NCBI RefSeq assembly: GCF_019029495.1 | Contig: NZ_JAERQM010000001.1 | Location: forward strand, 1,116,001 to 1,180,000 | Length of the DNA: 64,000 bases | Source: Falsiroseomonas oleicola | GTDB lineage: Bacteria > Pseudomonadota > Alphaproteobacteria > Acetobacterales > Acetobacteraceae | Reading direction: 5' to 3' | Shown here: positions 25,316 through 32,074 of the stretch, one piece after another | Layout: each line of letters starts with the position of its first letter | Numbering within the stretch: position 1 is the first letter of the stretch | The notes under the pieces: model-generated | The model's database searches: none | Seen by the model: the letters and a program-made list of their open reading frames with translations, nothing else | Told to the model about the DNA's origin: nothing | Made by a program: the position numbers and the translations under genes

Positions 25316-25780
25316 TCAGCCGCCGAGACGCGCCTTCACCAGCGGCCCGGCCTTGGCCATGTCCAGCACGGCACCGTGCTTGGCCCGCAGCACGGCCATG
25401 ACCTTGCCCATCTCCTTCACGCCGGTGGCGCCGGATTCCGCGACGGCCGCATCCACGGCGGCCGCCATCGCCGCCTCGTCCATCTGCTGGGGGAGGAAGG
25501 ATTCGATGACGGCGATCTCCGCCTCCTCCTTCTCCGCCAGTTCCGGCCGGTTGCCCTGGCGGTACATGGTGGCGCTTTCGGCGCGGGACTTGGCCATGCC
25601 GCGCAGCATGGCGACGATCTGGTCCTCCGGCACCTTCTCCACGCCGCTGGGGCGGGCGGCGATGTCCACATCCTTCAGCTTGGCCGTGATCATCCGCAGG
25701 GTGGAGGTGCGCGCCGCATCCTTGGCGATCATCGACTCCTTCAGGCTGGCGGTGAATCGGCTGCGCAGGTCGTCGGCCAT
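25316..25780 (-). CDS. yqeY: GatB/YqeY domain-containing protein
   Basis: A 154-residue all-helical protein of the YqeY family, related to the tail domain of GatB and thought to bind tRNA or amidotransferase-like partners. Clear family stretches are DLRSRFTASLKESMIAKDAARTSTLRMI (in parts), IESFLPQQMDEAAM and EMGKVMAVLRAKHGA. The start at 25780 is fixed by a strong ribosome site (AAGGAG) nine bases upstream. A longer open frame to 25894 runs through the promoter and is rejected. The -10 on the minus strand is probably CTATAT (25810-25805), which puts palindrome IR1 (25825-25841) over its -35, so this operon may share control with carA. Confidence 0.9.
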   Translation of the reverse strand: MADDLRSRFTASLKESMIAKDAARTSTLRMITAKLKDVDIAARPSGVEKVPEDQIVAMLRGMAKSRAESATMYRQGNRPELAEKEEAEIAVIESFLPQQMDEAAMAAAVDAAVAESGATGVKEMGKVMAVLRAKHGAVLDMAKAGPLVKARLGG

Positions 25781-25824: not shown

Positions 25825-25841
25825 TGGGAAAAATCTTCCCA
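25825..25841. promoter_or_regulatory. Operator IR1: TGGGAA-N5-TTCCCA (yqeY side)
   Basis: A 17-bp inverted repeat with six-base arms and spacer AAATC, centred at 25833. It lies upstream of the probable yqeY -10 (ATATAG at 25805-25810 on the plus strand) in the -35 position. Its arms and spacing are identical to IR2, 52 bp away, which equals about five helical turns, so both would face the same side of the DNA. Confidence 0.65.
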
Positions 25842-25870
25842 GGCGCGGCCCGCGCTTGCGATGGGCCCGC

Positions 25871-25899
25871 TTGCAGTGGGAAGGAAATTCCCACATATC
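25871..25899 (+). promoter_or_regulatory. Probable carA promoter giving a leaderless mRNA
   Basis: TTGCAG (25871-25876), a 17-bp spacer and CATATC (25894-25899) fit a sigma-70 promoter, though both hexamers are imperfect. Transcription would begin about 25906, exactly at the carA ATG. The lack of any Shine-Dalgarno sequence before that ATG agrees with a leaderless message. Operator IR2 fills the spacer. Confidence 0.5.
25876..25894. promoter_or_regulatory. Operator IR2: GTGGGAA-N5-TTCCCAC (carA side)
   Basis: A 19-bp inverted repeat with seven-base arms and spacer GGAAA, centred at 25885 and containing the same TGGGAA/TTCCCA arms as IR1. It sits exactly between the likely -35 and -10 of carA, the classic place for a repressor site. 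It begins 30 bases before the carA start, whose first 55 codons encode an HTH domain. Confidence 0.7.
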
Positions 25900-25905
25900 T
25901 CTCCC

Positions 25906-27294
25906 ATGCGAAGCGTCGAAGAGATCATCGCCCTGATGGGTGGACCGGAAGCCGCGGCGCAGCGGCTGAACATCGGCACCGAGGCCGTGCGCAAATGGCG
26001 CCAGGCGCGCGCCGTGCCGTCCAAGCACTGGTCCGCCATCCTGGCCGCCACCGGCCTGACCCTGGCCGACCTGCCGCAACCCCAGCCCACGCCCCGCACC
26101 CCTTCTCCCGGCAAGGACAGCAGCACCGTGACCCAGACCGCCCAGACCCCGCCCGCCGGCGCGACCGCCGCCCTGGTGCTGGCCGATGGCAGCGTCTTCT
26201 GGGGCCGCGGCTTTGGCGCCCAGGCGACCACCGTCGCGGAGATCTGCTTCAACACCTCCATGACCGGGTATCAGGAGGTGCTGACCGATCCCTCCTATGC
26301 CGGGCAGACCATCTGCTTCACCTTCCCCCATATCGGCAATGTCGGCGCCAACCCGGAAGATATCGAGGCCATCACCCCCGCCGCGCGGGGCCTGATCGTC
26401 AAGCAGGACCTGACCGAGCCGGCGAATTACCGCGCCACGCGCCACCTGGATGACTGGCTGAAGTCCCATGGCGTGCCCGGCATCGCCGGCATCGACACCC
26501 GCGCGCTCACGGCCCGCATCCGCGACGGCGGCGCGCCGAACGGCGTGCTGGCGCATCCGGCGGATGGCAGGTTCGACATTCCCGCACTGATCGAACAGGC
26601 CAAGGCTTGGCCGGGGCTGGAGGGGATGGACCTGGCGAAGGAGGTTTCGACCCGCCAGTCCTATGGCTGGGACGAGGCCGAATGGGCCTGGGGCCAGGGT
26701 TTTGGGCGGCAGGACGCGCCGCGGGTGAAGGTCGTGGCGGTGGATTATGGCGCCAAGCGCAACATCCTGCGCTGCCTCGCCTCCGCCGGCTGCGCCGTGA
26801 CCGTGGTGCCCGCCACCGCCACCGCCGAGGACATTCTTTCCCACAAGCCGGATGGCGTTTTCCTGTCGAATGGCCCGGGGGACCCGGCGGCGACGGGCGC
26901 CTATGCGGTTCCGGCGATCCGGGGCGTGCTGGAGACGGGGCTGCCGGTCTTCGGCATCTGCCTGGGCCACCAGCTTCTGGCGCTGGCGCTGGGTGCGAAG
27001 ACCTACAAGCTCGACCGCGGCCATCGCGGCGCCAACCAGCCGGTGAAGGAGCTGGCGACGGGCAAGGTGGAGATCACCTCGCAGAACCACGGCTTTGCCG
27101 TGGACGACGCCAGCCTGCCGGAGGGCGTGGTGGTGACCCATCGCAGCCTGTTCGACGGATCGAATGAGGGCATCGCCAGCACCACGAAGCCGGCCTTCTC
27201 GGTGCAGTACCATCCGGAAGCGAGCCCGGGGCCGACGGATAGCCACCATCTGTTCCGGCGGTTTGTGGGGATGATCGAGGCGGCGAAGGGCTGA
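25906..27294 (+). CDS. carA: Carbamoyl-phosphate synthase small subunit with N-terminal HTH domain
   Basis: A 462-residue protein, about 80 longer than E. coli CarA. Residues 1-55 form a Cro/YdaS-like helix-turn-helix (AAAQRLNIGTEAVRKWRQA, then VPSKHWSAILAATGLTLADL). I recall NCBI naming such a region the carph-isopro domain. A proline/threonine-rich linker (about 56-80) follows. Next comes CarA proper, with the N-terminal domain (FNTSMTGYQEVLTDPSY) and a glutaminase domain with nucleophile Cys in FGICLGHQLLALALG and the His/Glu pair in VQYHPEASPGP. It hydrolyses glutamine and channels ammonia to CarB. The ATG at 25906 is preferred to 25861 because the longer form would include the operator. 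Direct DNA binding by the HTH is inference. Confidence 0.95.
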   Translation: MRSVEEIIALMGGPEAAAQRLNIGTEAVRKWRQARAVPSKHWSAILAATGLTLADLPQPQPTPRTPSPGKDSSTVTQTAQTPPAGATAALVLADGSVFWGRGFGAQATTVAEICFNTSMTGYQEVLTDPSYAGQTICFTFPHIGNVGANPEDIEAITPAARGLIVKQDLTEPANYRATRHLDDWLKSHGVPGIAGIDTRALTARIRDGGAPNGVLAHPADGRFDIPALIEQAKAWPGLEGMDLAKEVSTRQSYGWDEAEWAWGQGFGRQDAPRVKVVAVDYGAKRNILRCLASAGCAVTVVPATATAEDILSHKPDGVFLSNGPGDPAATGAYAVPAIRGVLETGLPVFGICLGHQLLALALGAKTYKLDRGHRGANQPVKELATGKVEITSQNHGFAVDDASLPEGVVVTHRSLFDGSNEGIASTTKPAFSVQYHPEASPGPTDSHHLFRRFVGMIEAAKG

Positions 27295-27297
27295 GCC

Positions 27298-27927
27298 ATG
27301 GTCGAGCCCGGCAACCTGCTGGCCTTCGCGGCAGTGGCGCTCGGCATGGTGCTGACGCCGGGCCCGAACATGATCTATCTGATCAGCCGCAGCATCCTGC
27401 AGGGGCGGGCAGCGGGCTTCGTCTCCCTGGCGGGCGTGGCGCTGGGTTTTGTTTTCTACCTGCTCTGCGCCGCGCTCGGCATTACTGCGCTCGTCATGGC
27501 GGTGCCCTTTGCCTATGACGCGCTGCGGCTGGCCGGCGCGGGCTATCTGCTGTTCCTCGCCTGGCAGGCGGTGCGCGCGCCGGGCACGCCCTTCGCGCCG
27601 CAGGCGTTGCGGCCGGACAGCCCGGCGCGGCTGTTTGCCATGGGCTTCCTGACCAACCTGCTGAACCCGAAGATCGCGGTGCTGTACCTGTCCCTGCTGC
27701 CGCAATTCATCGACCCGGCTTCGGGCAATGTCTTCGCGCAATCCGTCACGCTGGGCGCCGCGCAGATCGCGGTCAGCGTCGCGGTCAATGCGATGATCGT
27801 GCTGGCCGCCGGCTCCGTCGCCGTGTTCCTGGCGCGGCGGCCGGTCTGGCAGCGGGTGCAGCGCTGGCTGATGGCGACCGTGCTGACCGGGCTGGCGCTG
27901 CGGCTGGCTTTCGACGGGCGGCGCTGA
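27298..27927 (+). CDS. LysE-family exporter (first)
   Basis: A 209-residue membrane protein of the LysE/RhtB family with six hydrophobic segments. It has the conserved opening VALGMVLTPGPNMIYLISRSI, a glycine-rich second helix (AGVALGFVFYLLCAALG), and the mid-protein FLTNLLNPKIAVLYLSLLPQFI. Members export amino acids or small metabolites. The start lies 3 nt after the carA stop and the gene is followed after 1 nt by a second LysE gene, so both are inserted between carA and carB in one operon. Substrate unknown; export of arginine- or pyrimidine-pathway amino acids is a guess from context. Confidence 0.9.
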   Translation: MVEPGNLLAFAAVALGMVLTPGPNMIYLISRSILQGRAAGFVSLAGVALGFVFYLLCAALGITALVMAVPFAYDALRLAGAGYLLFLAWQAVRAPGTPFAPQALRPDSPARLFAMGFLTNLLNPKIAVLYLSLLPQFIDPASGNVFAQSVTLGAAQIAVSVAVNAMIVLAAGSVAVFLARRPVWQRVQRWLMATVLTGLALRLAFDGRR

Positions 27928-27928
27928 G

Positions 27929-28564
27929 ATGCCCTCCCCCGAAACCCTCCTCGTCTTCGCCGCGCTCTCGCTCGGCCTCGCGGTCACGCCGGGGCCGAAC
28001 ATGCTCTACCTGATCTCCCGCTCCCTCGCGCAGGGCACCGGGGCGGGCATGGTGTCGCTGGTGGGCTGCCAGTTCGGCTCCTTCACCATCATGGTCTGCG
28101 CCGCCGCCGGCATCACCGCGGCGCTGCTCGCCATCCCCTATGCCTGGGACATTCTGCGCGTTGGCGGCGCGGCGTACCTCCTCTACCTCGCCTGGCAGAG
28201 CGTGCGGCCGGGTGGCCAGCCGATCTTTGCATCTCGGAAAATGCCCCGCGAACCGCGCGCGCGGCTGTTCTGGGTGGGTTTCGCCACGGCGGCGCTGAAC
28301 CCGAAGGTGGCGCTGTTCTACATGGCCGTGCTGCCGCCCTTCCTCGATCCCGCTCGGGGAAATCTGTTCCTCCAGGCCGCGATCCTCGGCTTCGTGCAGA
28401 TCGCCATCTGCACCGCCTGGGACGCCGCGCTGGTCTGGGGCGCGGCGGGCGCGGCGCGCTTCCTCGGTGAAAACCCCACCTGGATGGCGGTGCAGCGCTG
28501 GGTGCTCGGCGGTGCGCTGGCGCTGCTGGCGGTGAAGCTGGCGACGGAGAGCCGCGCGACATGA
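27929..28564 (+). CDS. LysE-family exporter (second)
   Basis: A 211-residue paralogue of the preceding gene with the same architecture: AVTPGPNMLYLISRSLAQG, the CQFGSFTIMVCAAAGITAALL second helix, and FATAALNPKVALFYMAVLPPFLDP. The adjacent pair suggests a tandem duplication with later divergence or a two-component exporter, although LysE proteins normally work alone. Its stop overlaps the start of the next small membrane gene (ATGATGG at 28561). Confidence 0.9.
   Translation: MPSPETLLVFAALSLGLAVTPGPNMLYLISRSLAQGTGAGMVSLVGCQFGSFTIMVCAAAGITAALLAIPYAWDILRVGGAAYLLYLAWQSVRPGGQPIFASRKMPREPRARLFWVGFATAALNPKVALFYMAVLPPFLDPARGNLFLQAAILGFVQIAICTAWDAALVWGAAGAARFLGENPTWMAVQRWVLGGALALLAVKLATESRAT

Positions 28565-28828: not shown

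Positions 28829-32074
<3,246 letters not shown>

Follow-up and report, generated by a model that had tools for sequence, protein, structure and literature searches.

The window analysed here is a stretch of 64,000 nucleotides from Falsiroseomonas oleicola. It contains a carA gene in which the small subunit of carbamoyl-phosphate synthase, the enzyme at the start of pyrimidine and arginine synthesis, carries a helix-turn-helix (HTH) domain at its N-terminus, followed by a linker that leads into the enzyme (Table 1). Two palindromes lie between carA and its divergent neighbour yqeY. Downstream, two LysE-type transporter genes, assigned by reading, separate carA from carB (27298-28564).

Table 1. 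Features of the carA locus; coordinates are those of the window.
Feature	Position	Strand	Basis
yqeY, divergent neighbour	25316..25780	-	adjacent in 121/140 loci
Distal operator (putative) TGGGAAAAATCTTCCCA	25825..25841	.	exact palindrome
carA -35, TTGCAG	25871..25876	+	by inspection; TTG there in 85/127 loci
Proximal operator (putative) TGGGAAGGAAATTCCCA	25877..25893	.	occupies carA -35/-10 spacer
carA -10, CATATC	25894..25899	+	by inspection and comparison of loci
carA, HTH-fused carbamoyl-phosphate synthase small subunit, 462 aa	25906..27294	+	Pfam/NCBIfam matches, invariant residues
Cro-like helix-turn-helix (carph-isopro), CarA residues 4-56	25915..26073	+	NF046037, AlphaFold2 model, solved relatives
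Variable linker of CarA	26074..26163	+	unconserved in 20 aligned sequences, length varies, frame open
Possible internal Shine-Dalgarno AAGGA	26113..26117	+	sequence
Possible internal start GTG, HTH-less CarA	26128..26130	+	sequence; AAGGA 10 nt before
carB, large subunit	28829..32074	+	named from reading of translations

The first-pass annotation had proposed that CarA carries an extra N-terminal HTH of the Cro/YdaS type, and we found such a domain. The N-terminal 83 residues of CarA match the carph-isopro model (NF046037) with 69.1 bits (cut-off 38). The matches to Pfam P22_Cro (28.2 bits, gathering cut-off 30.2) and YdaS_toxin (21.2 bits, gathering cut-off 30) are weak and below their cut-offs. 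In an AlphaFold2 model based on 79 sequences, the domain forms four helices (pLDDT 87.9). Its closest solved relatives are the Cro proteins of N15 (including an operator complex), Xfaso 1 and P22, with E-values of 2e-8 to 4e-5 in the sequence search and TM scores of 0.70-0.75 for the fold, where all Foldseek E-values are 0.001 or higher. The kinship with P22_Cro and YdaS is thus one at the level of distant sequence and fold similarity only. While the HTH is related to these Cro proteins, it is tied to a cellular enzyme and is not a free phage protein. We detected no viral relative of the domain in viral contigs with a single-sequence query, which reaches close relatives only. The enzyme part is intact: it matches the glutamine-hydrolysing CarA model TIGR01368 with 455.8 bits (cut-off 307.35), and Cys352, His436 and Glu438, which we take to be the catalytic residues by reference to E. 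coli CarA, are invariable in 20 of 20 aligned sequences.

The two palindromes follow the pattern TGGGAA-N5-TTCCCA. Both are exact and lie 52 bp apart from centre to centre, as had been claimed, and they are the only two exact occurrences in the genome of 5,617,378 bases, where the reversed control pattern does not occur. The proximal palindrome had been described as filling the spacer of the carA promoter, and its 17 bp indeed lie precisely between TTGCAG and CATATC. The start codon ATG follows 6 nt past the -10 element, and by inspection the carA message of the window appears leaderless. When up to two mismatches are allowed, the genome contains 51 matches compared to 47 for the reversed pattern. 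As this is the background level, no wider CarA regulon is visible in this genome and we rejected it as a candidate. One other genome of the family (G072) contains 11 exact sites, compared to 0-3 in the other genomes compared, and the sites at its own carA (L186) are not exact. These 11 sites could be either a repeat element or a wider regulon.

To what extent the domain is shared is seen in 150 genomes of the window's family, 142 of which have a carph-isopro match over the cut-off. By gene arrangement, 141 genomes have the HTH before carA, two have an unfused carA, in three carA is cut by a contig end and in four no carA was matched. Named records carrying the domain include Roseomonas, Acetobacter, Komagataeibacter, Gluconacetobacter, Asaia, Belnapia and Rhodopila. 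We analysed 140 of the 141 fused loci; the one left out (G128) is near a contig end, and an exact site precedes its HTH match by 38 bp. In two of the 140 loci, the frame is broken past the internal ATG (L113) or the contig ends before the enzyme (L118). These were taken as fused carA based on the HTH and the divergent yqeY, and they are included in the operator counts and excluded from the linker counts.

We scanned about 260 bp before the start of the 140 fused genes. The best site has no mismatch in 88 loci, one in 37, two in seven, three in two and four in six. Thus, a best site with at most one mismatch is found in 125 loci and with at most two in 132, and a second site with at most three mismatches is found in 121. 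The same three criteria are satisfied by 4, 50 and 16 of 2800 dinucleotide shuffles, by none of 140 stretches of equal length inside carA and by none of the upstream regions of 36 carph-isopro genes other than carA. Eight loci deviate from the strict consensus by more than two mismatches (L024 and L148 by three; L021, L098, L126, L146, L154 and L174 by four). With a tighter score that accepts G or C at position 2 (threshold 1.6 or lower), a site is found in 140 of 140 loci, compared to 64 of 1400 shuffles, 2 of 140 stretches inside carA and 0 of 36 non-CarA genes. With a relaxed score, two sites are found in 132 of the 140 loci (83 of 1400 shuffles) and one site only in the other eight. This relaxed score alone is weak, since 500 of 1400 shuffles contain at least one site; we therefore based our conclusions on the strict count and the tighter score. 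Among 51 loci from named records, CarA is in frame by a motif rule in 46; all 46 have at least one site and 45 have two (relaxed score), although 18 of the 51 are identical over the start region to loci already counted, so that not all are new genomes. Komagataeibacter xylinus (L326) is one of the named species that carry both the fusion and the two sites.

In most loci, the two sites at carA are separated by 37-41 bp; a smaller set, which includes the window, has 48-52 bp. These spacings are not uniform, though one mode dominates and the relatedness of the genomes is uncorrected, so that we draw nothing on helical phasing from them. By the relaxed score, 127 loci have two sites at a distance of 33-55 bp. 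In 85 of these, TTG is present at the place of the -35 element, and in 84 the start codon follows 5-9 nt past the place of the -10 element, as a leaderless message would have it. The remaining loci have longer leaders. For the window itself, the leaderless carA message is a reading by inspection. In the related literature, 62 of 1344 transcripts of Gluconobacter oxydans were called leaderless (PMC5756330), and the word "carbamoyl" is absent from the main text of that paper.

If CarA acts on these sites, they should be kept where the fusion is kept and be gone where it is gone. This test had been set beforehand. In the genus g30 (G029 and G116; 98 and 99% complete), carA lies beside yqeY and the HTH is absent. 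Upstream of carA neither site is present, the best matches having four and five mismatches. In a tree of the CarA part alone, g30 is nested within the fused clade and adjoins a fused locus with two exact sites (L188), and thus the domain and the sites were lost in one lineage. This is the one independent loss of the CarA fusion that we found, comprising two genomes. Other small genomes that have the HTH (L059 and L167) kept the sites with 0-2 mismatches. The same test gave the same outcome for an HTH fusion of PyrB in another family, where all three fused loci and none of the six unfused loci have their site. The HTH and the operator pair are hence conserved together and disappeared together in one genus. 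A specific site at the own gene that is conserved together with the DNA-binding domain is expected of an autoregulatory trigger enzyme, and it is what we found here. For the proposed autorepression by CarA, the joint conservation, the joint loss and the PyrB case provide comparative support.

The sites had also been proposed to link CarA to the divergent operon yqeY-dnaG-rpoD, which would couple carbamoyl phosphate to growth. We observed that 121 of the 140 loci have yqeY as the adjacent, divergent gene. The distal site of the window overlaps a plausible -35 element of yqeY, as had been noted; this overlap was seen by eye. The other 19 loci have no yqeY within 300 bp. Of these, 11 have neither yqeY nor dnaG in the stretch, six have them at a distance of 400-1150 bp and two have dnaG itself as the neighbour. 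The divergent neighbours in these loci include ispD-like, lipA-like, mazE-like and other genes (by reading). Yet all 19 retain at least one site and 18 retain two (relaxed score). Because the sites persist at loci that lack a nearby yqeY, control of yqeY-dnaG-rpoD through the sites is not supported, and we regard it as quite unlikely. In these loci, the operators follow carA and not its neighbour. An incidental effect on yqeY may occur in genomes like that of the window.

We then asked if residues of the HTH go along with the bases of the operator. Among 54 HTH columns, column 30 is the one most associated with a change from G to C at operator position 2 (Fisher 6e-6, uncorrected). This column holds the Gln of the motif KWRQ, where helix 3, the recognition helix, ends. 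Three clades combine Ser or Ala at column 30 with C-type sites: L098 and L146 together with three further g96 genomes, L126 and L154, and L021. Exceptions are L155, which has Ser and mostly G-type sites, and L159, L174 and L024, which have Gln and C-type or mixed sites; with His or Thr, the site types are mixed. In tree-corrected independent pairs, two to three are concordant and zero to one discordant, which is not significant. A search for further genomes with Gln replaced by Ser or Ala, whose pattern lacked AGR/AGY codons and missed the known G096 and G068, yielded nine loci. Five encode another protein and four are carA, three of them new (all g96 and C-type) and one (L241) a repeat of L021. 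We take the association as a hint that the residue at column 30 might covary with the operator base.

The same domain also occurs on other proteins. It was found over the cut-off in 52 of 289 genomes drawn from the class and in 9 of 299 genomes of the phylum, of which only two (G797 and G922) are outside the class, where the domain thus looks rare. The partner seen most often in the class is a membrane protein, presumably of the mitofilin/COG4223 type, and has no TGGGAA sites. The HTH precedes an apparent membrane coiled-coil protein at L037, L038, L040-L047, L049, L051, L052, L054, L057, L061, L062 and L064, where L045 was placed in the group by its HTH only. It is puzzling why an inner membrane protein should carry a DNA-binding domain. 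Based on NCBIfam, the enzyme partners are HisZ (ATP phosphoribosyltransferase regulatory subunit), ArgB (acetylglutamate kinase), PyrB (aspartate carbamoyltransferase), SerA (phosphoglycerate dehydrogenase), pyruvate dehydrogenase E1 alpha (PdhA) and crotonyl-CoA carboxylase/reductase (CCR). The scanned HTHs of HisZ (30.4 bits), ArgB (36.0 bits) and PdhA (32.7 bits) are below the carph-isopro cut-off of 38.

Some of these fusions have palindromes of their own. In one family (f49), 15 of 18 genomes searched have an HTH-HisZ match, and all 15 loci contain two TTCATA-N3-TATGAA palindromes exactly 39 bp apart (no mismatch in 14 loci, one mismatch in one). None of 6500 shuffles of 13 of these upstream regions contains a pair 33-41 bp apart. 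The genomes with HisZ fusions have 0.9-1.4 Mb, several of them incomplete. For HTH-ArgB, pairs of TTACT-N5-AGTAA with 0-1 mismatch each are found 34 bp apart in three of four loci; the fourth (L266) fails the pair rule and has a variant pair visible by eye. For HTH-PyrB, all three genomes of one family that have the fusion contain an exact TTGCG-N5-CGCAA, and one of them has two copies. None of the six unfused PyrB loci of that family has a site within one mismatch. Thus, the HisZ, ArgB and PyrB fusions follow the same design, each with an operator of its own.

Further loci are single cases or small groups. A HisZ locus of family f19 (L246) has TTCATATAATATGAA upstream, the same operator as in the f49 fusions, in a single copy and further from the start; at a HisZ locus of another family (L249), no TTCATA pair was found upstream. 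Upstream of SerA L256, no palindrome was found by the search rule. ArgB L259 has an ATATAC-N7-GTATAT repeat, which is AT-rich at a single AT-rich locus. The upstream regions of two CCR fusions (L063 and L196) have CGTCAA-N13-TTGACG in common (2 of 2, by eye; too few to judge), and L063 contains a Met close to where the enzyme usually starts. PdhA and LeuA fusions are represented by one locus each. The latter (L343 of G797, another class of the phylum) is by reading an HTH on 2-isopropylmalate synthase, with a GGATTTA-N5-TAAATCC palindrome upstream at this single locus.

These comparisons bear on the possibility that an unlinked transcription factor binds the palindromes, with the HTH of CarA as a passenger that has another DNA target or none. 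A candidate for such a factor exists, as the window's genome encodes a second, separate small carph-isopro protein (L004, C12:611483-611620; 83-codon open frame, 39.1 bits and thus just over the cut-off). No TGGGAA site was found near this gene. An unlinked factor is however at odds with the loss of sites and fusion together, with exact sites at the one locus that encodes the HTH, with the association of column 30 with the operator base and with the finding that the palindrome upstream of the own gene differs among four enzyme fusions. We therefore consider it very improbable.

The linker between HTH and enzyme is unconserved, yet it often contains a possible second start. Linker counts exclude the loci where the junction rule failed (24 of 139 in the first count, 12 of 138 in the second). 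An in-frame ATG is found in 80 of 126 linkers, most often 11-15 codons before the enzyme. In 63 of 126 it is preceded by a Shine-Dalgarno sequence, compared to 9.9 +/- 2.8 when codons are shuffled within the linker (maximum 19 in 1000). A Shine-Dalgarno sequence precedes 63 of 90 in-frame ATGs but only 1 of 56 out-of-frame ATGs of the same linkers, and 3.9% of ATGs inside carA under a slightly wider spacing rule. In place of ATG, the window has the candidate GTG of Table 1, and L123 of the same genus has a linker GTG led by GGAG. In g30, the unfused carA begins with a GGAG-led ATG, and the LeuA-like fusion L343 has a GGAG-led ATG at the expected enzyme start. At the fused PyrB loci, we found no internal start at the enzyme junction. 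Because half of the linkers hold an in-frame ATG with a Shine-Dalgarno sequence, many fused genes probably make both HTH-CarA and plain CarA. These codons could also be relics of the ancestral carA start from which no protein is made, and the 63 of 126 linkers that lack the combination fit such an origin. The preference of the Shine-Dalgarno sequence for the in-frame ATGs and the excess over shuffled linkers argue against relics, which we thus regard as an unlikely explanation.

From the sequence evidence, HTH-CarA is very probably a repressor of its own promoter, with two HTHs acting on each palindrome. Two HTHs that are paired in oligomeric carbamoyl-phosphate synthase (CPSase), or in CarA that is free of CarB, would bind each TGGGAA-N5-TTCCCA site. 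The proximal site is part of the promoter core; its occupation would block RNA polymerase, and repression is thus the likely effect. Cooperativity would come from the distal site, which is mostly located 37-41 bp further upstream (52 bp in the window). We infer binding and repression here, as well as which state of the enzyme would repress. In about half of the genomes, the internal start would yield plain CarA as well, so that the repressor form would be a part of the pool. The same plan would be reused with other enzymes and other operators.

Pairing of the HTHs might depend on metabolites. Work on E. coli CPSase has it that UMP favours the heterodimer whereas ornithine, ATP and potassium favour the tetramer, and that oligomerisation itself has no effect on the regulation of activity (PMC6245113). 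Since the oligomeric state of the E. coli enzyme follows UMP and ornithine, effectors could decide the pairing of HTHs, and effector-dependent oligomerisation of CarA could in this way gate DNA binding. The main alternative to effector gating is that CarB-free CarA senses amount, with repression proportional to it and no metabolite sensed. The HTH is carried by the small subunit, and other genes separate carA from carB in the window, which both agree with amount control. Sensing of metabolites fits better, however, since several other fusion partners are feedback-regulated or regulatory: ArgB, HisZ, PyrB, SerA and LeuA are such proteins in many bacteria. We thus view pure amount control as possible but rather doubtful.

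The domain of CarA is the very one described by NF046037, whose name fits fusions to carbamoyl-phosphate synthase and 2-isopropylmalate synthase (as in L343). This entry has so far consisted of a name and a model, to which we add operators, the association of a residue with the operator and internal starts. Among the matches listed, judged by title and abstract, we found no published description of HTH-fused CarA, of carph-isopro or of kindred self-regulating fusions, which may be in print elsewhere. PutA, BirA and NadR are trigger enzymes. Furthermore, PepA and PyrH act in transcription control at E. coli carAB (PMC6245113). Like these proteins, HTH-CarA would combine a metabolic activity with control of transcription, in this case that of the own gene. 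Unlike with PutA, BirA and NadR, one modular HTH of phage type is common to at least eight unrelated enzymes. The gene of the same enzyme is also regulated at the level of transcription in E. coli, in parallel to what we propose for HTH-CarA; the regulators of carAB named there are ArgR, PurR, RutR, IHF, PepA and PyrH, and not the enzyme itself (PMC6245113).

Operators of their own accompany the carph-isopro fusions that were examined in number, and carA frequently contains an internal start from which CarA without the HTH would be made. These observations point to a class of biosynthetic enzymes that would repress their own genes. We lean towards a modular class in Alphaproteobacteria and beyond, in which a Cro-like HTH on oligomeric enzymes of committed steps (CarA, PyrB, ArgB, HisZ, SerA, LeuA and others, often feedback-regulated) would read the state of the enzyme into matched operators at the promoter and replace separate regulators, often with an internal start that gives the plain enzyme. 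If this is true, one polypeptide would control both enzyme activity and gene expression, and this combination would have been assembled repeatedly from the same phage-type module. It would also assign a function to an NCBI domain for which little beyond a name exists, and offer matched pairs of HTH and operator. For the carA gene, two proteins are predicted from one gene, and the HisZ cases would provide a partial answer to how amino acid pathways are controlled in bacteria with small genomes.
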